A DNA stretch of 64,000 bases, taken from Bacillota bacterium. GTDB taxonomy: Bacteria > Bacillota > Clostridia > Ch29. The position numbers were made by a program, and so were the translations under genes. The stretch spans positions 124,001-188,000 of the forward strand of contig JABVCK010000004.1 in assembly GCA_013540605.1 (NCBI GenBank). The letters are read 5' to 3'. Numbering within the stretch: the first letter of the stretch is position 1; the number at the start of each line of letters is the position of its first letter. This document shows positions 7,495 through 61,623 of the stretch, in pieces. Below the pieces are notes generated by a model. That model was given only the letters and a program-made list of their open reading frames with translations. It was not told where the DNA came from and did no database searches.

Positions 7495-7827
7495 TGATAT
7501 CCCTCCTAGTTTTTTTCATAGTAATATTTGAATACTCTTTTCCCTCTCCCTACAATCACCCCCGAATTATTTGCATAGAACTTGTGTTCGTCTTTCCTCT
7601 ATATTACTGGATACATTTATTTATTCTATATGTATTTGAATTATCCTTCAATTTTTTCACACAAAATCCTACCATAAATTACCCGCTTTCTACATACTGC
7701 ATATTTATTTAATATTAAATTAAAAGCCTTATTGATTTTTATTGGATTTAAATTGGGTTTCTGTATATTATTACACTAACTGGATTAAAAATCAATTACT
7801 TTTTTTTTTGAAAAAATTTTTTAAAAT
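7495..7827. other. AT-rich gap upstream of oppA
   Basis: About 330 bases of very AT-rich DNA separate the oppA start from the terminator of the zinc-ribbon gene. It must hold the opp promoter (minus strand). I see several A/T-rich -10-like strings but no convincing -35/-10 pair, no dyad operator and no coding potential. Confidence 0.5.
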
Positions 7828-14095: not shown

Positions 14096-14345
14096 AAAAA
14101 ACCCTCCGTCCTAGAAGGACGAAGGGCAAGCTTCGCGGTACCACCTTATTTCCCTGTAAGGGCTCTCAAATCAGGTTAACGGCTGAACCCGGCCCGGACT
14201 ACTGCTATTTCACCCGGACAGCTCGGTAGCTACCTTCAACAGGATACGCCGGGTGCCTTTCAGCCGGTGAACACCCTCTCTTGGGGCTGAAGCCTGTTTA
14301 CTCCTCTACTTCATCGCCTTTACCGACCATACATCAGTCTTTTAA
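14096..14345 (-). promoter_or_regulatory. T-box riboswitch controlling valS (specifier GUA)
   Basis: On the minus strand the leader contains the conserved T-box TGGTACCGCG (14134-14145 region). It is followed by a terminator stem CCCTTCGTCC / GGACGGAGGG and a T-run (14096-14126). In stem I, GTAG and AACAGG on the left pair with CTAC and CCTGTT on the right. This leaves a left loop AGGAGTA (with the AGUA element) opposite GAAGGTAG, so the specifier is GTA, a valine codon, at 14231-14233. Uncharged tRNA-Val would stabilise the antiterminator. Confidence 0.93.
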
Positions 14346-15498: not shown

Positions 15499-15607
15499 AA
15501 CGCACCTCGATAGTCAAATAGTTTACGCTGGTTTTAATCCGGTATACCACATTAATTCTATATGTGAAAGTAAAATCCTGCAAGTATATGTTTGCCAGTA
15601 ACCCGCC

Positions 15608-26222: not shown

Positions 26223-27962
26223 TTATATAAAATTTAGCACTGCAGCAAGGTTAAGTATTTGAATAACTCTTTTGCCATCACCAAGTTTGGCAATAGAATC
26301 AACATATCTGTTTTTATCATTTGCGGAAATCACCTCCGGAGTCTCTTCAAGAAACTCCTTTGAAAACCTCAAAACTTCAGAAACCGAATCTATCAAAATA
26401 CCTATCTTCTTTTTTTGATACTCTATAACTAAAAATTTGGAAGAGTCAAGAGAATGTATATCTGTTATCGCAAATAGTGTTCTAAGATTGAGTATAGGAA
26501 TTACTTCCCCTCTCAAATCAACCATTCCGTCAATAAAAGCGGGAGCACCCGGGAAGCGCACAAGTTCGCTCATTCTGTTAATTTCTTGAACATGATTGAT
26601 CCTGATTCCATATTCTTCATTTGCAATTTTAAATATTACAATGTGCTCAATACTATAATCATTTAAATTGAGCTTCATTGAGTTATCCTTGACGGCTTCC
26701 TCCCGTCCGCCGTCGCAAATATCGGTTAAATCCTTAAAATTGACTATCTTATTGGTTTCCAGCACCATTACAAGCCTTTTGCCATTATTCAGATTAACAA
26801 ACCCTTTGATGAACTCTGTACCCTTACTGATTGCAATCTGGAAATGCTTCTTGAATGAATCCTTCTGTATATGGGCAACCTCGAACACCCTGTCAACAAT
26901 CACACCATATGTGAAGCTTCCTGTATCAATGATTACAACACGGCTGTATTCATCCGGCTCTTTGCAATTCACATTCAGAAGTTTTCCCAAATTGATTACT
27001 GCAAGAAGATGGTTCCTGATAGAAATGACCCCTTCAATATAATTCGCCGTATCTGGAACCTTCATTATACTAGGAAGCCTTATGATTTCCTTCACATCAT
27101 TTATATTGACCGCATACTCTTCATTCCCTAAGGCAAAAACAATTATTTGTTCTTCCTCCACTTTTGTGTTTGAACCCGCCAGTTCCATTTTTGACAGCCC
27201 TTTCTGATAATTTGCATGGCTGTCGAACTCTCCGGCTTTTACAATTTTTTCAGCATCGAGAATCATGATTATTCTTTTTCCATTGTCAAGCACAAGTATA
27301 CCGTTGATAACTCCTCCATCAATCCCCCTAATGCTCTCGGGTGGCTCCTTTATGTATATTTCCTCCGTGCTTAATACCTCCGAAACCTTATCCGATATTA
27401 TTCCAACCCTCTTCCCATGAATATCGGTAACAATAATCCTGCTGCTCCCATTGCACTCCTTATCCGGCATACCAAACCATTTGCGGCTGTCAATAACAGG
27501 CAACAGTTCTCCTCTCAGGCTGCACAAACCGGCAATATAAACCGGTGCACCCGGAACCTTCGTCATGTCAGGCACCCTGATGATTTCTTTCACATTGCTT
27601 AATATAAATGCAAATTCTTCTTCTCCTACACGGAACACTACCATCTCAATTTTATTATCCTTTGCCGATTCCTTTTCTTCATCCTGCAACACTTCTTCAA
27701 CCATATTCCGTTCTTCAAATTCAGCCTTTGTGTCATAATCATTTTTTGCATCATCAGCTTTCTTCATCGCTGCCGGCATGCGTTCATTCTCTGTCTGGAC
27801 AGGGCTGTCAACCAGCAAAGGGTGCTTTACTTCTGTATTTTCCATTTCTACTGTCGAAGTACCCGGTATTTGCTGTAACTCGGCTGTCTTTTTTTTCCTG
27901 CTAATTTCCCTTTTAATTTTTTCAAAATTATTCTGGCTTTTTTTACTGCTTCTCCCCGGCAT
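26223..27962 (-). CDS. Triple CheW-domain protein (chemosensory scaffold)
   Basis: A 579-residue cytoplasmic protein. After a basic, low-complexity N-terminus (SSKKSQNNFEKIKREISRKKK, about 100 residues) it carries three consecutive CheW domains, at about residues 105-250, 262-410 and 440-579. Each repeats the CheW signatures: EEFAFILSNVKEIIRVP, EEYAVNINDVKEIIRLP and EEYGIRINHVQEINRM, then GLCSLRGELLPVID, GVISIRNHLLAVIN and GMVDLRGEVIPILN. Ordinary CheW has one domain and couples receptors to CheA; three in one chain would bridge several sites in an array. The start overlaps the ParA-type gene by about 20 bases. Confidence 0.92.
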   Translation of the reverse strand: MPGRSSKKSQNNFEKIKREISRKKKTAELQQIPGTSTVEMENTEVKHPLLVDSPVQTENERMPAAMKKADDAKNDYDTKAEFEERNMVEEVLQDEEKESAKDNKIEMVVFRVGEEEFAFILSNVKEIIRVPDMTKVPGAPVYIAGLCSLRGELLPVIDSRKWFGMPDKECNGSSRIIVTDIHGKRVGIISDKVSEVLSTEEIYIKEPPESIRGIDGGVINGILVLDNGKRIIMILDAEKIVKAGEFDSHANYQKGLSKMELAGSNTKVEEEQIIVFALGNEEYAVNINDVKEIIRLPSIMKVPDTANYIEGVISIRNHLLAVINLGKLLNVNCKEPDEYSRVVIIDTGSFTYGVIVDRVFEVAHIQKDSFKKHFQIAISKGTEFIKGFVNLNNGKRLVMVLETNKIVNFKDLTDICDGGREEAVKDNSMKLNLNDYSIEHIVIFKIANEEYGIRINHVQEINRMSELVRFPGAPAFIDGMVDLRGEVIPILNLRTLFAITDIHSLDSSKFLVIEYQKKKIGILIDSVSEVLRFSKEFLEETPEVISANDKNRYVDSIAKLGDGKRVIQILNLAAVLNFI

Positions 27963-36148: not shown

Positions 36149-37225
36149 TTACCTGTTAATAGCTTTAATAATTTCTGCTGGTATCCTGTAAGACGGCACT
36201 ACAATCTCTGCTCCGCCTCTTTCAATGGCCTCCCTCGGCATTCCGAAAACCACGGCCGTAGACTCATCTTCAGCAATGGTCATACCCCCGGCATTTCTTA
36301 TCTTCACCATTGCGTCTGCTCCATCGTCTCCCATTCCGGTCATAAGAACTCCAATCACATTTTTTCCTCCATATGCATTTAAAACAGATTCCATCGTTAC
36401 ATTGACCGATGGCATAAAAACGGTTTTGGGGTTATTGGTAAGGCGGAGCATTCCTCCTTCCCGTCTCACCACCAGCTGGTAACCCCCCGGAGCAAGGTAC
36501 CCTCTTCCATCCTGAAGGATATCTCCTGCCTCTGCTTCCTTGAATGGAAACCGGCAGGCATCATCCAGCCTTTTTGCAAAAGAAGATGTAAAGGACGGAG
36601 GCATATGCTGTATTACGATCAACGCTGCCTTTAGTTCCTGGGGAAGCGCCGGCAGAACTTCCATCAAGGTTCCCGGACCGCCTGTTGAAATACCGATTAC
36701 GACAACTTTTGAAAGACCTGCACTCTTTGGTATGTTTACCTTTCTTACAGGTACTGCCTTTTTTGGTGAAACTGCAGCATTCCGTCTCTTTATTCTGTCC
36801 CTGATGCTTTTTTTATTCGCATTCTTATATGCCAGTTTTATTTTTTGTATAATTTCCCTGCCTACAACGTGTATATTTGAAGATACAGTCCCTGAAGGCT
36901 TGGCAACATAGTCAAAGGCACCAAGCTCCAGAGCTTCAAAGGTAGTCAAAGCCCCTTCTGTAGTAAGAGAACTTATGATTAAAACAGGTACTTCGGGATA
37001 ATCGTTCAATATGTACTGCATGGAAGTCAAACCGTCCATGACCGGCATATTGATGTCCATGGTAATTACATCCGGCTTCAAGTCATGCACCTTTTCAACG
37101 GCATCCTGTCCATCCCTTGCCGTTGCCACTACGTCAAGGCTGTCGTCGGTCATGATTATTTCCTTAAGTGCCTTTCGCATAAGAGCCGAGTCATCTACAA
37201 CCAATACTTTTATTCTATCAGCCAT
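36149..37225 (-). CDS. cheB: Chemotaxis response regulator methylesterase CheB
   Basis: This 358-residue enzyme removes receptor methyl groups and deamidates glutamines. The REC domain has VLVVDDSALMRKAL and the acceptor aspartate in VITMDINMPVMDG. The methylesterase triad is visible as serine in GISTGGPGTL, histidine in VIQHMPPSFT and aspartate in TGMGDDGADAM. Length and order are standard. The ATG at 37225 follows AGGTG. It lies between the triple-CheW and the Hpt-STAS genes. Confidence 0.95.
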   Translation of the reverse strand: MADRIKVLVVDDSALMRKALKEIIMTDDSLDVVATARDGQDAVEKVHDLKPDVITMDINMPVMDGLTSMQYILNDYPEVPVLIISSLTTEGALTTFEALELGAFDYVAKPSGTVSSNIHVVGREIIQKIKLAYKNANKKSIRDRIKRRNAAVSPKKAVPVRKVNIPKSAGLSKVVVIGISTGGPGTLMEVLPALPQELKAALIVIQHMPPSFTSSFAKRLDDACRFPFKEAEAGDILQDGRGYLAPGGYQLVVRREGGMLRLTNNPKTVFMPSVNVTMESVLNAYGGKNVIGVLMTGMGDDGADAMVKIRNAGGMTIAEDESTAVVFGMPREAIERGGAEIVVPSYRIPAEIIKAINR

Positions 37226-37307
37226 AACATTCACCTGTCGCTAATACTGTGTTTGCCAGGCCTACCCCGGAGCAGGCATTCTCTACCACCCCGGGGTAAC
37301 ACCCTGA

Positions 37308-38795
37308 TTAAACTGCAACTTTATTAAAGCTCAAAACCTTATCAAGATTCAGTATCAGGATCATTCTTTTACCGCCGTTGAGCTTTCCGACACCCTCAAC
37401 ATAATCACTGTCAATACCGCTGCTCAATATGTCGGGCGGAGGCTCGATCAGCGTTTTTTCAAACCGGAGGACTTCTGAAACCGAATCCACCACAATTCCG
37501 GTTTTCTTACCATTCAAATCAACAATGATGATTCTTGTTGCATCTGTTTTTTGCTTTTCAGAAAGCCCGAACAGCTTTCTTAAATCCAGTGCCGGTATGA
37601 TATTTCCTCTTAAGTTTACAATACCCTCAATATAGTGCGGTGCCCGCGGTATCCTGGTAACCTCCGTCATCCTGTTGATTTCCTGCACATCGGTTATCTT
37701 TACACCGTACTCTTCCATATCAATTTTGAAGGTGACCAGCTGCTCCTCGTCCATCAACTGTCTTTCAATGCTTTTTTCCTCTCCAGCCTGTTCATGTATT
37801 CCGGCTGTACCGCTGATTAAGCCGTATTCATCGGCAGATATCAGCTTTGACGGTTCAAGCATCAGTATCATCCGCTTGCCGTTATTGAGCTTTGCCACTC
37901 CCTTTAGCTGTTCGCCGCTTTGTGCGGAAAATTTGGGGGAAGGCTGGATAATGCTTGCCGGAACCCTCAAAACCTCCGAGACCTTGTCCACCATAATTCC
38001 GGCTGTAAAGTTCCCCATATCCACTACCAGGACCCTGGTATGGTCGGTGATTTCCTTATGCCCCATACCGAAATAAGTCCTTAAGTTTATAATGGGAAGC
38101 AAATTGTTGCGTATGGATACAACCCCTTCCACATAAGCTTCACAGTTTGGAACCTTTACAATTTCAGGCACACGGATGATTTCCTTAACCTGCATGATTC
38201 CAATGGCATACTCCTCTTTATCAAGCAGGAATGACACCAGCTGTTCCTCATCAATAACCTCAATACTTGAACTGTTCTCCTGTACTCCGTTCTTTTTAAA
38301 GCCCTCTTCCTTTTCAGCTTTACAGCCATTCCCAGTGCTGCCGGCACTCACAGCCTTAACGACATCCAGCAGCATAACAAGCCTGTTTCCATTGTCCAGC
38401 TTCACAACTCCGTTCAGGTAGTCGGAATCCACATTTTTTACAATCCGTGGCGTTTCCTCAATATCCGCCGTGTTTACACGCATCACCTCGGATACCTTAT
38501 CCACAACCATTCCTGTTGCCTTGCCGTCCACATCGATGACAAGCACCCTGCTGTTTTCGTCCTTTTGCTTTTTTTCCATGCTGAACCTCGCTCTTCCGTC
38601 AATGATAGGCAGGACGTTTCCTCTCAGGTTGCAGGCGCCTTCGATGTAGCCGGGAGCATTCGGCACCTTTGTGATTTCAGGAACCCTGATGATCTCCTTT
38701 ACATCCATGATATCGGCCCCGAACTCATCCTCTCCCAGCAGGAAGGTAACTAGCTGGCGCTCGGTAAAGCTGGCATTGTTTATACCAGAAGCCAT
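37308..38795 (-). CDS. Triple CheW-domain protein, second paralogue
   Basis: A 495-residue protein consisting almost only of three CheW domains (about residues 12-155, 180-325 and 350-495). The repeated hallmarks are DEFGADIMDVKEIIRVPEI, EEYAIGIMQVKEIIRVPEI and EEYGVKITDVQEINRMTEV. Each is followed by [EV]G-x-x-[SN]-[LI]-R and, later, VDKVSEVMRV-like segments. It lacks the basic N-terminal tail of its paralogue at 26223. The ATG follows GGAGGGG. It is encoded 18 bp after the receptor gene, so receptor and scaffold are made together. Confidence 0.93.
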   Translation of the reverse strand: MASGINNASFTERQLVTFLLGEDEFGADIMDVKEIIRVPEITKVPNAPGYIEGACNLRGNVLPIIDGRARFSMEKKQKDENSRVLVIDVDGKATGMVVDKVSEVMRVNTADIEETPRIVKNVDSDYLNGVVKLDNGNRLVMLLDVVKAVSAGSTGNGCKAEKEEGFKKNGVQENSSSIEVIDEEQLVSFLLDKEEYAIGIMQVKEIIRVPEIVKVPNCEAYVEGVVSIRNNLLPIINLRTYFGMGHKEITDHTRVLVVDMGNFTAGIMVDKVSEVLRVPASIIQPSPKFSAQSGEQLKGVAKLNNGKRMILMLEPSKLISADEYGLISGTAGIHEQAGEEKSIERQLMDEEQLVTFKIDMEEYGVKITDVQEINRMTEVTRIPRAPHYIEGIVNLRGNIIPALDLRKLFGLSEKQKTDATRIIIVDLNGKKTGIVVDSVSEVLRFEKTLIEPPPDILSSGIDSDYVEGVGKLNGGKRMILILNLDKVLSFNKVAV

Positions 38796-38813
38796 AACTA
38801 TCCCCTCCATCCT

Positions 38814-40760
38814 TTACATATTCTGAAGCTCGTCAGCCAATCCGGATATCTCTTCAATGGCTTCAGCCAGTTCCTGCATGCCTTTTGCCTGTTCAGCCGC
38901 AGCATTGGATGCCTCCTGGGCTCCCTTGCTGGCTTCCTGGGCAGCGGCAGCAATCTGGTCGACACCCTTCTTTACCTGTTCCAGAGCCACCAGCGACTCC
39001 TCCGAACCCTTCTGGACTTCCTTTGATCCTTGAAGTATCTTTATCATGCTTTCTTCAATCACATTCAGGTTGTGAGTTGTCTTCTTTGACTCTTCCACCT
39101 GTGCAAATGAGGTTTTGCTGGAAAGGTCTATATCGGCCGAAACCCTTTGAATCTGGTTCTGTATGCCTCTTACAAGGTCCTTGATCTTGTCTGTGTTTTC
39201 TGCAGACTCGTTGGCAAGCGCCCTTATATCCCCGGCAACTACAGAGAAGCCCCTGCCGAATTCCCCTGCCCTTGCCGCTTCAATGGAACCGTTTACGGCC
39301 AGCATATTCGTTTGTATCGTTACATTTACTATGGCATCGACGATTTTATCAATTCTCCTGGTGGTTTCCTCGAGGCTCCTTATATTCTTAGCTGACACCA
39401 CGCTGGCTTCTGCCGAGGACGATATACCTTCAATCATATTATCAACTGCAATTTTGTTGGCCTCCAGCAGCTTCTGGAGCTCCGCTATCTTGTCTGCTGA
39501 AAAGCCGGCTCTCTCGTTCATTTGTTTTGCGGCTACAACAAGCTTTTCAGCCAGTATTGCAGCTTTTTCGTTAAGCTCGGCCTGAGCCTGGGCACCGGAG
39601 GATATCTGCTGCATAGCCGCTAATATTTCATTTGCAGTTGAGTTTGCCTCCTCCACGTTGGCGGACAGTTCCTCGGCAGCGGCCGCAAGAGACTCTGAGG
39701 ATTTCTGCGCATCCGTAGATACCTTGAGGTCTTCAGCCATCTGGGCCAGGTCCGCCGCAGCTGCATTCAACTCATTGAAAGCCTTGTTCTGCATCTGGAT
39801 CGACTTCTCCACTTCCTCTGCAGCACTGCTTTGCTGCTCGGCAGCCGCTGCAATCTGTTCGGCGATTGCCAGGAACTCACCGGCTCCCTTGTTTGCATCC
39901 ACTGCATTCTGGGATACCTCTGCAACGCCCTTTTGCACCAAAACGATTCCTTCATTTATTTTCACAAGGTCCGCAGTGGTTTTCTTTGCCTTCTCCACTT
40001 CCTCATTGGCAGCCTTGCCTGCATTTTCTATATCGGCCACTACAACCTTTACATTGTTTTGTATTTCATTTACAAGCTCCCGGATATTTCTGGCCGATTT
40101 TTCAGAGGTTTCGGCAAGATTCCTGACTTCATCCGCTACAACTGCAAATCCCTTTCCGTGCTCACCCGCCCTGGCGGCTTCTATAGCGGCATTCAGCGCA
40201 AGCAGGTTGGTCTGGTCGGCAATTCTGACCACTGCCTGCACAATTTCCCCTATCTCATTGGACTGCCTTTCCAATTCTCCTACCAGCTTCACCGATTCCA
40301 GGTTTGTGTCGGCTGATTCCTTAATTCCCTTGACCAGTAGCTCAATATCTTTTGAGGTATTCTCTATGAGTTCCTTTGCAATGTCCACCCTTCTAAGGGA
40401 TTCCTTTGCATTCTTGTCGGCTACAACCGAAGCCTTGTCTATCTGGTTGATGGCCGCTCTTGACTCTTCAGCCGCCGATGAAGCCTCATTGGCCCCCTTG
40501 GCTATCTGCGCCATTGTTGCGCCAAGCTCTTCCGCGGCGCTGCTGGCTTCCTCGATACCTGAAGCAAGCTGTTCTGTTGCAGCTGCAATTCTTTCCGCCA
40601 GCTGCTGCTGCTTGGCCAGCGTCCTGGCTTTCACCTTGTCCTGGGCCTGCTTTCTGGCAAGCTCCCTCTTCCTTTCCATTTCATCGGTGGCTTGAACAGA
40701 TACAGGTGTTGTTTTCTTTTCAACTTTACCGTTTGATGGGCTTGCAAGTTTCTTTTCCAT
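38814..40760 (-). CDS. Soluble chemoreceptor with two tandem MCP signalling domains
   Basis: A 648-residue cytoplasmic, almost wholly helical protein with no transmembrane or sensor domain. It contains two full MCP hairpins. Tip 1 (about residues 178-225) is [19 protein letters not shown] followed by [19 protein letters not shown]. Tip 2 (about 478-525) is [19 protein letters not shown] followed by [19 protein letters not shown]. The two tips are exactly 300 residues apart. Glutamate pairs of methylation type ([24 protein letters not shown]) flank each hairpin. The N-terminus has a basic stretch ([17 protein letters not shown]). Expected to form a cytosolic array with CheA and the triple-CheW proteins. 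Confidence 0.92.
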
Positions 40761-40927: not shown

Positions 40928-41161
40928 CTACTCCTGGCACTCCGGATGGAAAATGATATAGTACACATTTACACCGTCGCCTGTAGGTTCATTTCCCAGA
41001 TAACCATCCCGGTACAGCATGCCAACCTTTTGGCGGATTTCTTCTATACTGCATTTGATACCGTTTTGAAGAAGCAGCTTGTGAATTTCAGCCAAAGTAT
41101 TGAATTCGGACTCGCTGTTTTTTATGTATTTCAATAATTCCTCGTCAATCATTTGAAGCAT
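40928..41161 (-). CDS. Small winged-helix-like protein
   Basis: A 77-residue protein with the pattern of a compact winged helix: helix IDEELLKYIKNSESEFNTLAEIHKLLLQNG, a recognition-like helix CSIEEIRQKVGMLYRDGYL, and a beta wing (GDGVNVYYIIFHPE). I place the start at the ATG eight bases after GGGAG. It lies between the first response regulator and the receptor of the chemosensory locus, so it may regulate the operon or bind an array component. No named family is recognised. Confidence 0.65.
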   Translation of the reverse strand: MLQMIDEELLKYIKNSESEFNTLAEIHKLLLQNGIKCSIEEIRQKVGMLYRDGYLGNEPTGDGVNVYYIIFHPECQE

Positions 41162-41221
41162 TGTCCCAACTCCCTTCATGTACTAATTCCCTTAATATTA
41201 ACAACGCCTGTTTCCCTTCCT

Positions 41222-41581
41222 CTATTTTTTAAACTTGTTTAAATTCTTAAGAACAATTTCTTCTTTATAAGGTTTGACAATAAAGCCCTTCGCCCCATTC
41301 ATTATTGCCGTCCGTACGTAGGGCTCCTGTCCCATTGCAGAAACCATAATGACAACAGGCTTGTTATCTAGTTTTTGTATTTGGGTAACGCATTCAATAC
41401 CGTCCATTTCCGGCATTGTTATGTCAAGAGTAACAATATCGGGTTTCAATTCCTGTATCTTTTTCAGAGCCTCCCTACCGTTCCCCGCTTCACCCACTAC
41501 CTCAAAACCATTTCTTTCAAGCATTTGTCTGAGCTGCAGTCTTATAAAAGCAGCGTCATCGACGATTAAAAGTCTTGTCAA
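41222..41581 (-). CDS. cheY: CheY-like response regulator
   Basis: A 119-residue single receiver domain: LLIVDDAAFIRLQLRQML, the acceptor aspartate in IVTLDITMPEMDGIECV, serine in VIMVSAMGQE and lysine in FIVKPYKEE. It is closest to classical CheY. A TTG start lies five bases after GGGGGAGG. It is the first gene of the chemosensory locus. A TATAAT box (41607-41612, minus strand) lies upstream but lacks a convincing -35, and an inverted recombinase-type site starts 70 bp upstream at 41651. Confidence 0.92.
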   Translation of the reverse strand: MTRLLIVDDAAFIRLQLRQMLERNGFEVVGEAGNGREALKKIQELKPDIVTLDITMPEMDGIECVTQIQKLDNKPVVIMVSAMGQEPYVRTAIMNGAKGFIVKPYKEEIVLKNLNKFKK

Positions 41582-41650
41582 ATAAACCTCCCCCTAGACA
41601 TTAGCCATTATACATTTAAATTTCTTACTCTCCTCACGCTTTTTTAATAA

Positions 41651-41676
41651 TGCAACAAAATACCTAAAATGTTGTA
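41651..41676 (-). repeat. 26-bp dyad site, left copy (inverted)
   Basis: This site reads, on the minus strand, TACAACA-TTTTAGGTAT-TTTGTTGCA. Its arms RCAACAWWW are inverted around a six-base centre. The asymmetric centre TAGGTA points opposite to the two copies to the right of the recombinase gene. Confidence 0.8.
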
Positions 41677-41744
41677 TTGGCTGTAATCTGCAAGCCCATT
41701 ACCTGATGTCCATATTACATTTCAACGGTAATGCTTGATTGAAA

Positions 41745-41771
41745 TTGACATAAAATCGGATGTATTATTAT
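41745..41771 (+). promoter_or_regulatory. Probable promoter of the recombinase gene
   Basis: TTGACA (41745-41750) is followed after 15 bp by TATTAT (41766-41771), or after 18 bp by TATGTG. An isolated arm of the 26-bp site, CTTTGTTGCA (41788-41797), lies between this promoter and the AAAGGAG ribosome site, where recombinase binding could repress its own gene. Confidence 0.55.
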
Positions 41772-41814
41772 GTGAAAAAAATTAATGCTTTGTTGCATTT
41801 AAAGGAGTGGTATT

Positions 41815-42375
41815 ATGACGGTTGAACCAATAAGGGACAAGACAAAGATCAAACAGATGTATCAGCTTTTAAAAGGAAGGGATGAAAAATATGCATTGCT
41901 CTTTAAGTTTGGACTCAATACAGGCTTAAGAATCAGTGATATTATTCCATTAAGAGTAAAAGATATTATGAGTCCCAATATGCAATTCCGTGAATACCTG
42001 ATTTTAAAAGAAAAGAAGACGGGCAAGGAGAAAAAAATCAAATTAAATGACGCCTTGAGAAAGATAATTATTGACTATATTAAAAGCACCGGTCTGACTT
42101 ATGAAAGTTACATATTCTCAAGCAAAAAAGGTGGTTTTATCGGCAGAATACAGGCCTACCGTGTTTTGAAGGAATGTGCCGAGATAGTGGGTATTGAGAA
42201 TTTCGGTACTCACAGTCTGAGAAAGACATGGGGCTACTGGACCTATAAGATATCCCGGTATAACATTGGCCTGATAATGGATACCTTTAATCATAGTTCT
42301 CAGGGCATTACTCTACGGTACATCGGAGTGAACCAGGATCAGAAGGATGAACTGTATTCAATCGTTCAACTTTAA
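41815..42375 (+). CDS. Catalytic-domain-only tyrosine recombinase (FimB/FimE-sized)
   Basis: A 186-residue tyrosine site-specific recombinase without the N-terminal core-binding domain. The catalytic residues are visible: Arg I in FGLNTGLRISDIIPL, Lys in the KEKKTGKEKKIKL beta turn, His-x-x-Arg in GTHSLRKTWGY, the second His in TFNHSSQGIT, and the nucleophile Tyr in LRYIGV. This size is typical of FimB/FimE-like DNA invertases and small Clostridia/Bacteroides integrases. The gene is more AT-rich than its neighbours and on the opposite strand to them. It is surrounded by three 26-bp dyads of dif/att type, so local inversion or excision is a reasonable prediction. Confidence 0.88.
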   Translation: MTVEPIRDKTKIKQMYQLLKGRDEKYALLFKFGLNTGLRISDIIPLRVKDIMSPNMQFREYLILKEKKTGKEKKIKLNDALRKIIIDYIKSTGLTYESYIFSSKKGGFIGRIQAYRVLKECAEIVGIENFGTHSLRKTWGYWTYKISRYNIGLIMDTFNHSSQGITLRYIGVNQDQKDELYSIVQL

Positions 42376-42466
42376 AATATTAGCTTTTGGGTGATATGAA
42401 GATATGACAATTATTTTATCAGATTTTTAGAGGAATTATCGACTTTTTGTCGAATAAGAATTTTTA

Positions 42467-42492
42467 TACAACATTTTAGGTATATTGTTGTA
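42467..42492 (+). repeat. 26-bp dyad site, right copy 1
   Basis: TACAACA-TTTTAGGTAT-ATTGTTGTA, directly oriented relative to the next copy and inverted relative to the copy at 41651. It lies 92 bp after the recombinase stop codon. Confidence 0.8.
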
Positions 42493-42554
42493 TTATAAAA
42501 TTTATATTGAAACTTGCAGGAAAATAAAGAAAAATGTAGAATAGTATTTAATTA

Positions 42555-42580
42555 AGCAACATTTTAGGTATTTTGTTGCA
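42555..42580 (+). repeat. 26-bp dyad site, right copy 2
   Basis: AGCAACA-TTTTAGGTAT-TTTGTTGCA, in the same orientation as the copy 88 bp to its left. All three copies share the ten central bases TTTTAGGTAT. Confidence 0.8.
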
Positions 42581-42586
42581 TGTTAG

Positions 42587-42630
42587 TATACAAGTTTGCC
42601 ATACTTAGAAAATTATGACAAACTTGTATA
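42587..42630. repeat. 12-bp perfect inverted repeat
   Basis: TATACAAGTTTG (42587-42598) and CAAACTTGTATA (42619-42630) are perfect reverse complements separated by 20 bases. The repeat lies just outside the outer recombinase-type site and could be an element end, a hairpin terminator or an accessory protein site. Confidence 0.6.
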
Positions 42631-42782: not shown

Positions 42783-44819
42783 TTATTTATCAAACATACC
42801 TTTAACGGTGCTCTTTATCAATGCTTCATCCGCTATATACGGAATGGTTATATGGTCGGTACCTCTTCTCATAATGTTGTATTCGATGCATGTCTCGATT
42901 GAGTTATTGTTCCTTGCCCAGGAGCGCCTTGCCACACCGCCCATGACATCCCAGGGGATTGCGCTTTTGATCACCTCGTCAACCCGCTCGCTGCCGTCGA
43001 GAACAAGCCCAAAACCTCCGTTTACCGCTTTGCCTATGCCCACTCCCCCACCGTTGTGAAGCGCAACCAGGCTCATCCCCCTCGCGGCGTTTCCGGCGAA
43101 ACACTGCGTGGCCATGTCCGCCATTATGTTGCTGCCGTCTTTTATGTTGGAGGTTTCCCTGAAGGGGGAATCGGTACCTCCTGTATCATGGTGGTCCCTT
43201 CCCAGCATTACAGGGCCTATTTCCCCTTTGCGCACCATCTCATTGAACCTAAGGGCTATGTTCATCCTCCCCATGGCATCCTGGTAAAGTATTCTGGCCT
43301 TTGTTCCTACCACCAGCCTGTTTTTATGGGCATCCCTGATCCACACATAGTTGTCCCTGTCCTGGAACCTCCTGTCAGGATTTATGCATTCCATCGCCGC
43401 CCTATCGGTCTTCAGGAGGTCATCCTCCTTTCCGCTGAGGCAGACCCATCGGAAGGGACCGTACCCGTAGTCAAAAAGCACAGGTCCCATAATGTCTTCC
43501 ACGTAGGACGGGAAAATGAAACCGTCCAGGGGATTTTCTCCGTTCCTGCATATTTCCTTGACTCCGGCGTCGTAAACCGCCTTCATAAAGCTATTGCCGT
43601 AGTCGAAAAAGTATGAACCTCTGTCTACCAGCTGTTTGATCAGCTCATAATGCTTTCTCAGGGACTTGTCAACCAGAGCCCTGAATCTTGCCTTATCGGT
43701 CCTCAGCAGTTCGGTGCGCTCATCGAAGGTAAGCCCCTGGGGGCAGTACCCGCCGTCATAGGCAGCGTGGCACGATGTCTGGTCGGACAGCAAATCTATA
43801 TGTATATTATTGTCCGCAGCGTATTCCAGCAAATCCACCACGTTCCCAAAAAACGCTATTGCCGCGCCCTCATTCTTCTCCATGTGCTCCCGTGCAAGCT
43901 TGAAGGCCTGGGAGGGGTCCTCCGCAATACTGCCCACCCATCCCTGCTCATATCTGGTCCTGATCCTGGAATAGTCCACCTCTGCTATGATGCCCACGCC
44001 GTTGGCTATCTCAACCGCCTTCCCCTGGGCACCGCTCATCCCGCCAAGGCCGGATGTTACATAGAGGCGGCCCCTCAAATCGCTGTCTGCAGGGATACCG
44101 AGTTTGTCCCTGCCGGCATTGAGGATGGTGGAGTAGGTCCCGTGCACTATACCCTGAGGCCCGATGTACATCCAACCCCCGGCGGTCATCTGGCCGTAGT
44201 TGGCAACGCCCAGCGCCGCAGCCCGGTGCCAGTTCTCCTGGTCATCGAACATGCCCACCATCAGAGCGTTGGTGATTATTACCCTCGGGGCGTTGGGCGA
44301 AGATTTGAAAAGCCCCAGAGGATGTCCGGATTCTACGACCAGGGTTTGATCCTGAGTCATTGTTTCCAGATATCCTTTAATAAGCCAATACTGCATCCAG
44401 TTCTGGCAAACCTGGCCGGTTTCGCCGTAGGTTACCAGTTCATAGGGATACAGGGCTATGTCAAAATCCAGGTTGTTGTCTATCATCACCTGGAACGCCT
44501 TTCCTTCAAGGCACATACCCCTGTATTCATCAACCGGCTTTGCCTTTATATTGCCCGGGGGCCTGAAACGATACCCGTAAATCCTGCCCCTGTTCACCAG
44601 CTCGTCCAGGAACTCCGGCGCCAGTTCTTCATGCCATTTCCCGGGAATATACCTCAAAGCGTTCTTCAGGGCAAGTTCTGTCTCTTCCCGAGTGAGGGTG
44701 AATTCCCTCTTGGGCGCTCTACGTATACCTTCCACGAACTGCGGCATCTCCGGCAGTTCGGTGAAGATATCTTCCAGCTTTATTCTCATTGCGTCCGAGA
44801 CATCCCTATTGGTTATCAT
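42783..44819 (-). CDS. hutU: Urocanate hydratase (long form)
   Basis: This 678-residue NAD+-dependent enzyme converts urocanate to imidazolone propionate in histidine degradation. Family motifs include YVTSGLGGMSGAQGKA, SDQTSCHAAYDGGYCPQG with the active-site cysteine region, DHHDTGGTDSPFRET and LHNGGGVGIGKAVNGGFGLV. It is about 120 residues longer than the common 550-560 aa enzyme; such long forms are known in Firmicutes. No hutH, hutI or ftcD is in the window. The ATG at 44819 follows GGGAGG. It is co-transcribed with the PHP gene, 24 bp upstream. Confidence 0.92.
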   Translation of the reverse strand: MITNRDVSDAMRIKLEDIFTELPEMPQFVEGIRRAPKREFTLTREETELALKNALRYIPGKWHEELAPEFLDELVNRGRIYGYRFRPPGNIKAKPVDEYRGMCLEGKAFQVMIDNNLDFDIALYPYELVTYGETGQVCQNWMQYWLIKGYLETMTQDQTLVVESGHPLGLFKSSPNAPRVIITNALMVGMFDDQENWHRAAALGVANYGQMTAGGWMYIGPQGIVHGTYSTILNAGRDKLGIPADSDLRGRLYVTSGLGGMSGAQGKAVEIANGVGIIAEVDYSRIRTRYEQGWVGSIAEDPSQAFKLAREHMEKNEGAAIAFFGNVVDLLEYAADNNIHIDLLSDQTSCHAAYDGGYCPQGLTFDERTELLRTDKARFRALVDKSLRKHYELIKQLVDRGSYFFDYGNSFMKAVYDAGVKEICRNGENPLDGFIFPSYVEDIMGPVLFDYGYGPFRWVCLSGKEDDLLKTDRAAMECINPDRRFQDRDNYVWIRDAHKNRLVVGTKARILYQDAMGRMNIALRFNEMVRKGEIGPVMLGRDHHDTGGTDSPFRETSNIKDGSNIMADMATQCFAGNAARGMSLVALHNGGGVGIGKAVNGGFGLVLDGSERVDEVIKSAIPWDVMGGVARRSWARNNNSIETCIEYNIMRRGTDHITIPYIADEALIKSTVKGMFDK

Positions 44820-44843
44820 GCATACCAACCTCCCGAAATTTTA

Positions 44844-61471: not shown

Positions 61472-61504
61472 ATATACAGATAAAAATCGAACCGTATATG
61501 CTGT

Positions 61505-61605
61505 TCTTCTCCTTTCCACATCGGGAGGCATAACCGTTTCCAGCCATACCCTATCGGTCAGCACACCATAGGTTTTAAGCCTAAGGCGTGAAGACTCGGA
61601 GCTAT
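61505..61605 (-). promoter_or_regulatory. Candidate Moco (molybdenum/tungsten cofactor) riboswitch
   Basis: On the minus strand the leader folds into a closing stem CTCC (in CTCCGAG, 61595-61601) with GGAG (in GGAAAGGAG, 61509-61517). One internal hairpin is CACGCC-TTAGG...CCTAT-GGTGTG. A second hairpin, GGTAT-GGCTG-GAAA-CGGTT-ATGCC, is extended by GGG/CCC and capped by a GAAA tetraloop. The layout and the CTCCGAG / GGAAAGGAG ends agree with my memory of the Moco RNA motif. The promoter upstream, the terminator downstream and the Moco-linked genes support the call. A covariance-model search was not possible here. Confidence 0.7.
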
Positions 61606-61623
61606 GTATGTACTTGTAAGTAT

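Follow-up and report, generated by a model that had tools for sequence, protein, structure and literature searches.

A putative self-flipping promoter cassette beside a chemosensory operon in a Clostridia genome, and its relatives in other genomes

Between the cheY gene of a chemosensory operon and hutU, the genome of a Bacillota bacterium (GTDB Clostridia; Ch29; assembly GCA_013540605.1, 3.35 Mb) carries a short recombinase gene framed by inverted repeats, raising the question of whether this segment can turn round and so switch the operon on and off. We analysed positions 124,001 to 188,000 of contig JABVCK010000004.1 (forward strand), a stretch of 64 kb hereafter called the window, whose coordinates are used throughout, and compared it with related loci from other genomes. 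A sequence-only reading had proposed a possible phase switch at this position, and that proposal is strengthened by core matching within loci, by a related cassette apparently present in both orientations in one assembly (G732) and by published inversions in Clostridia (reported in passages of PMC5903667). We consider it highly probable that the segment is a self-contained invertible promoter cassette acting as a phase switch.

Recombinase, sites and promoters in the window

The sequence-only reading had placed three 26-bp sites at 41651-41676, 42467-42492 and 42555-42580; all are in place and extend to 28-mers (Table 1), each comprising an 8-nt arm, a 12-nt core and a second 8-nt arm (ATGYAACA - 12-nt core - TGTTRYAT, with slight variation). 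They had also been described as inverted around a recombinase, and positions 41650-41674 and 42557-42581 proved to be perfect reverse complements over 25 nt. With up to three mismatches allowed, the site pattern occurred three times in the window (0.00 expected from 100 shuffles), and the same search of the whole genome returned none beyond these three places, making the pattern exclusive to the locus within this genome. Of the loci compared, that of the window is the only one where a directly repeated third site with a matching core was noticed.

The protein encoded between the sites is a tyrosine recombinase by its Phage_integrase match and by R39, K71, H133, R136, H160 and Y169, which we take to be the catalytic set (R, K, H-x-x-R, H and Y) and which were invariant in 51 relatives. 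The recombinase of Lutispora thermophila falls in the same clade. Phage and plasmid collections yielded only relatives below 60% identity. As a separate observation, Streptococcus phage records hold recombinases about 45% identical to it in many Streptococcus prophages, and these may be inversion enzymes too.

Two outward promoters are predicted downstream of the recombinase. P1 is one of three perfect sigma-H matches in the 64 kb, against 0.10 expected, and the host genome encodes a sigma-H gene scoring over the curated cut-off; the other two perfect matches of this type lie at 7621-7649 and 15553-15581 on the minus strand. Since P1 is of the sigma-H type, activity would be expected at entry to stationary phase or sporulation. 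P2 precedes the outer right site, which suggests that the promoter was duplicated along with the site. In the assembled orientation, the only one in the assembly of this genome, which holds no flipped form, P1 and P2 face the 3' end of hutU and point away from cheY. A flip via the inner right site would bring the end of the P1 -10 element to 104 nt before the cheY TTG, and one via the outer site would set P1 and P2 in tandem upstream of cheY. The suspicion that the operon's own promoter is weak was borne out, as no good cheY promoter was found outside the cassette; nor was a riboswitch found between the left site and cheY. We also looked for a leftward promoter, whether within the leader or beyond the left site, by which the present orientation would be ON; none was found, and that reading was rejected.

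We propose that the recombinase encoded in the segment would bind the arms of the inverted sites and that strand exchange in their identical cores would invert the segment of 0.8-0.9 kb. A promoter 3' of the recombinase stop would read outward across the right site. The assembled orientation, with this promoter directed away from cheY and the operon without a good promoter of its own, would be OFF, and the flipped orientation, with the promoter facing cheY about 100 nt before the start codon, would be ON. With two right sites, each behind its own promoter, two different ON forms would be possible and, by geometry, a deletion of 88 bp as well. The sites, the matching of cores across relatives, the outward promoters as consensus matches, the gene context and the two orientations in one related genome assembly are observed; that this recombinase catalyses the exchange, that the promoters are used, that expression goes ON and OFF with orientation and that any flip occurs in this genome are inferred.

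Table 1. Features of the putative cassette and of its surroundings in the window.
Feature	Position	Strand	Basis or remark
Candidate left recombination site, 28 nt (arm, 12-nt core, arm)	41650-41677	-	Inverted relative to both right sites
Candidate right recombination site, inner copy	42466-42493	+	Sequence comparison
Candidate right recombination site, outer copy	42554-42581	+	Direct repeat of the inner copy
Likely recombinase promoter, TTGAAA-18-TATTAT, with overlapping TTGACA alternative	41739-41771	+	Consensus match, within chance for the whole region
Pair of arm-like half-sites around recombinase promoter/leader	41760-41798	+	ATGTA and GTTGCAT, 27 nt apart
Tyrosine recombinase, 186 aa, catalytic domain only	41815-42375	+	Single Pfam domain Phage_integrase (PF00589)
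Predicted outward promoter P1, perfect sigma-H consensus, AGAGGAATT-N11-GTCGAATAA	42429-42457	+	Consensus match
Predicted second outward promoter P2, sigma-H-like, GCAGGAAAA-N11-GTAGAATAG	42516-42544	+	One mismatch, at the last position; read against the consensus
20-nt inverted repeat outside the cassette, between outer right site and 3' end of hutU	42587-42630		Without T run
hutU, urocanate hydratase, far side of the cassette	42783-44828	-	
cheY, first gene of the operon that would be served after a flip	41222-41581	-	Start codon TTG
83-aa protein conserved in the chemosensory operon	40928-41179	-	Without Pfam or NCBIfam match
Chemoreceptor (MCP) of the operon	38814-40760	-	
CheW-like protein of the operon	37308-38810	-	Named from translation
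CheB of the operon	36149-37234	-	Named from translation

Outward promoters and served genes among relatives

Relatives were drawn from a related-locus search (48 loci) and from genome searches (12 of 99 related genomes at E up to 1e-15; 14 of 391 class-level and 14 of 398 phylum-level genomes, both at E up to 1e-60). With duplicates removed (10 loci dropped), the set of close relatives comprised 55 loci with an identity of at least 58%, whilst 22 unique loci with identity below 58% or a broken gene fell outside it. A search for sites around orthologous recombinases, whose absence had been named as grounds for refuting the phase-switch proposal, turned out in favour of the proposal, with an inverted pair in 47 of the 55 close relatives. 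Four of the other eight were cut by a contig end (L039, L040, L090 and L091), one had a degenerate right site with both flanks present (L011), and in three the site pair was absent though both flanks were present (L017, L075 and L088). Inverted pairs were also present in L042 and L046 from outside the set, a comparable pair not being found in the remaining loci examined there, and in L113 and L117, which were added later and are not counted in the 47. One locus from an assembly with a duplicated flank (L033) was inspected and kept out as evidence.

The spacer of sigma-H promoters is 11 or 12 nt. We scored sigma-H as RNAGGAWWW-N11/12-RNNGAATWW, a consensus printed, the spacer excepted, in a passage of PMC8510167, and sigma-A as TTGACA-N16-18-TATAAT, with expected numbers taken from mononucleotide shuffles. 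On the outward strand of the tail, defined as the stretch from recombinase stop to right site, sigma-H was matched without mismatch in 14 of the 47 loci (0.00 expected) and with at most one mismatch in 19 (0.45 expected), and sigma-A with at most one mismatch in nine (0.10 expected) and at most two in 19 (2.60 expected). Altogether, 37 of 47 tails carried a sigma-H match with at most one mismatch or a sigma-A match with at most two, leaving 10 that matched neither at these thresholds. Across the 47 loci, no promoter match with one mismatch or fewer was obtained from the other strand of the tail, from either leader strand or from the sequence beyond the left site. Judged by consensus, the segment holds a promoter that reads outward to a gene in one orientation. 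HD-GYP loci had mostly sigma-A-type promoters and most chemoreceptor loci sigma-H-type ones, an association that is not independent since promoter class partly tracks the recombinase tree.

The promoter of the recombinase itself had been expected to face cheY once the segment is flipped. That a promoter within the segment would do so still stands, but it would probably be mainly P1/P2, and the main driver after a flip is probably the dedicated outward promoter 3' of the recombinase stop rather than the recombinase's own. A flip acting via the recombinase promoter alone is countered by this dedicated tail promoter and by a terminator-like hairpin lying directly after the recombinase in 14 of the 47 relatives, most of which still have a tail promoter. 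The same hairpins bear on the best-surviving alternative, in which inversion would act mainly via read-through of the recombinase transcript, or the direct sites would act by deletion, with the tail promoter secondary. A search of the window from recombinase to right site revealed nothing resembling a terminator, so that read-through could add expression there; yet tail promoter matches far exceed chance and the directly repeated third site was noticed at no other locus compared, and we regard this alternative as unlikely.

Consistent with a cassette that serves its neighbour, the gene on the served side belonged to chemotaxis, c-di-GMP or flagellar functions in 43 of the 47 loci. In 39 of these the first gene past the left site, pointing away, lay in such a cluster, and in the other four (L030, L038, L058 and L085) such a gene lay past the right site in the promoter's direction. 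Three of the four right-target loci (L030, L058 and L085) have very short leaders of 28-44 nt and so do not merely represent the usual arrangement after a flip; the promoter of their recombinase is apparently external to the segment, in which case a flip might turn the recombinase off. Neighbours were assigned per locus from BLAST clusters with representatives checked by Pfam, small opposite-strand ORFs being skipped in the choice of left gene at a few loci; L006, whose first gene had no Pfam match, was counted via its MCP operon, and four of the 47 (L012, L025, L033 and L093) were counted for neither served side. The Pfam families of 43 left neighbours, which overlap within proteins, were HD_5 (n = 9), MCPsignal (n = 6), CheW (n = 6), Response_reg (n = 6), EAL (n = 4), Hpt (n = 4), GGDEF (n = 3) and FapA (n = 3); among the 25 listed of 98 for the 47 right neighbours, only MCPsignal (n = 2) and HD_5 (n = 2) were of such families.

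A c-di-GMP-I riboswitch lay between the left site and the gene in 10 of the 47 loci (L006, L009, L020, L021, L027, L031, L037, L041, L082 and L093). In five of these (L009, L020, L037, L082 and L093) the gap from site to aptamer is 24-35 nt, which is too small for a promoter, so that the cassette should supply it. Separately, L088, which lacks a site pair, has a c-di-GMP-I-GGC riboswitch within its short locus, encoded on the opposite strand.

These neighbourhoods also weigh on a second alternative, that of a small transposable element with terminal inverted repeats whose regulatory effect is incidental. Such an element would suit the patchy distribution, a recombinase tree that mixes bacterial families and on which neighbour labels need 29 changes, and the four cassettes with four different cores in a single MAG (L007, L018, L019 and L032), of which L018 and L032 are sisters in the tree and L007 and L019 are placed elsewhere. 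Horizontal spread is, however, compatible with a switch as well, and a mobile element accounts poorly for the fixed polarity beside chemotaxis, c-di-GMP or flagellar genes in 43 of 47 loci, with no such preference among the opposite neighbours, for genomes that mostly hold one cassette, and for an outward promoter conserved at one end only. Insertion sequences are recognised by several copies at unrelated places, and the genome of the window holds one close copy; we rejected the sites as transposon ends on the absence of multiple genome copies and the strong one-sided neighbour preference, and regard the transposable element as very improbable beside the invertible cassette.

Core matching, orientation and leader half-sites

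Strand exchange by tyrosine recombinases needs core identity between partner sites. Over the central 8 core positions of the 47 loci, the two sites of a locus differed at 11 of 376 positions (0.23 per locus), against a mean of 3.71 mismatches in 8 positions between loci; none of 10,000 permutations gave a total as low as that observed (permutation minimum 136), and 38 distinct cores were present among the 47 loci. Because the cores match within loci as exchange requires, the two sites of a locus appear to serve as recombination partners, and in the window, too, the inverted repeats share an identical core.

Further indication of inversion comes from G732, a draft assembly in which the same 856-bp cassette stands on two contigs, both ending within the right-site core. 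The left end of the cassette is joined to one flank (A) in one contig and to another (B) in the other; the two contigs become identical from within the core onward, whereas their flanking sequences show no relationship (24% over 400 nt). G770, a related genome assembled as a single contig, has one cassette between B on the left and A on the right. As flank B bears an HD-GYP-like gene, one G732 contig would be OFF and the other ON. From this one draft assembly, G732 appears to hold the cassette in both orientations; two separate cassette copies are a possible alternative, needing a rearrangement exactly at the cassette. A further genome, G790, is Desulfosporosinus metallidurans by sequence, which places G732 and G770 in its family (f89), and partly from its gene content we take it that G770 may be Desulfitobacterium dehalogenans.

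An extra arm reported in the recombinase leader is present as part of a pair of arm-like half-sites at 41760-41798, and such pairs were present in 16 of the 44 leaders, where 1.1 would be expected; their spacing is mostly 26-27, which exceeds that of the recombination sites by about 10 nt, or roughly one helical turn. The pair is a possible autoregulatory operator, and its recurrence at wider spacing suggests that the recombinase limits itself. The distance from the end of the left site to the recombinase start codon was most often about 137 nt among relatives, and several leaders have a palindrome or hairpin close to the left site. Least probable, by a slight degree below the transposable element, is that the sites are operators only, through which the protein controls its own gene, and perhaps cheY as well, with no recombination involved: the half-sites flanking the recombinase promoter would fit binding without exchange there, yet binding needs the arms and not the 8 central positions that match within and differ between loci, the catalytic residues are invariant in the 51 sequences, and G732 shows both orientations.

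Known switches and the wider meaning of the cassette

Salmonella Hin acts in flagellar phase variation on a segment of about 1 kb and depends on a recombinational enhancer. The putative cassette resembles this Hin / hix system in having an invertible segment of about 1 kb with recombinase gene and outward promoter next to a motility-related operon; passages of PMC5903667 place the Hin gene inside its invertible segment, and Hin is described in part of PMC11868660 as a serine recombinase working with Fis. Unlike Hin, the enzyme here is a tyrosine recombinase, with 12-nt cores that vary by locus. The FimB/FimE recombinases of E. coli are similar to the cassette enzyme in size and family, although the NCBIfam models for tyrosine-type DNA invertases matched it weakly, scoring 24.5 and 20 bits where the cut-offs are 222 and 221. 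The fim recombinase genes lie outside their invertible segment, whereas here the gene lies inside. That fim segment, of 0.3 kb, carries a promoter only (PMC5903667, in part). The Cdi switches of C. difficile (RecV; flg, cwpV, cmr, pdcB and pdcC) share with the cassette the tyrosine recombinase family, short inverted repeats, and c-di-GMP and flagellar targets, but their segments are short, for instance 174 bp for pdcB, whose switch contains an invertible promoter (PMC9286219, in part), and 154 bp for flg (PMC5386303, in part), and have no recombinase inside, RecV or an unidentified enzyme acting from elsewhere, whereas the recombinase of the cassette is not encoded away from its switch.

Read data in Sekulovic et al. 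2018 revealed inversions in Desulfitobacterium dehalogenans, next to an HD-type phosphodiesterase, and in C. thermocellum, next to chemotaxis genes, and these passages name, in addition to Hin, one invertible segment with a recombinase ORF inside, in Providencia stuartii (fimbriae) (PMC5903667). The inversions probably include members of the present cassette family, for which the available part of that paper contains no description of a recombinase, matched cores, outward promoters or a cassette. Likewise, the open-access literature, supplements aside, yielded no tyrosine recombinase cassette of this make-up fronting chemotaxis or c-di-GMP genes.

The broadest account that we would offer is that portable self-flipping promoter cassettes have spread among Clostridia-type bacteria, almost only before chemotaxis, c-di-GMP and flagellar genes; that their own core codes, identical at both ends, let several work in one genome without cross-reaction; that the three sites and two sigma-H promoters of the window give more than two states and tie the chemosensory operon to the onset of stationary phase; and that the recombinase limits itself via the wider half-sites. 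Taken jointly, these propositions seem to us equally likely to hold or to fail. The proposed switch would explain how many anaerobes may turn on complete chemosensory and c-di-GMP systems in some of their cells, and the reported Clostridia inversions without an assigned recombinase would gain an enzyme-level explanation. The combination of recombinase, matched inverted sites and outward promoter offers a signature for discovering switches from sequence, cassettes whose cores differ within one genome open the core specificity of tyrosine recombinases to direct testing, and the cassettes could act as orthogonal genetic switches.

A natural fixed-promoter comparison for the window operon is provided by locus L103 (G029:C1:3708000-3716000), where the same cheY - 83-aa - MCP - CheW operon occurs at 73-87% identity without a cassette, and where the 660 nt upstream contain no site and no sigma-H match. 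The presence of the operon in G029 without a cassette fits a switch that is an added module. The 83-aa protein is conserved in four genomes, between cheY and the chemoreceptor or adjoining it, and is possibly a new small chemotaxis protein. Elsewhere in the window, the CheW-like proteins at 37308-38810 and 26229-27647 are about 43% identical, pointing to two chemosensory clusters, and the minus strand carries a T-box leader (14112-14323) and a molybdenum cofactor riboswitch (61493-61613).
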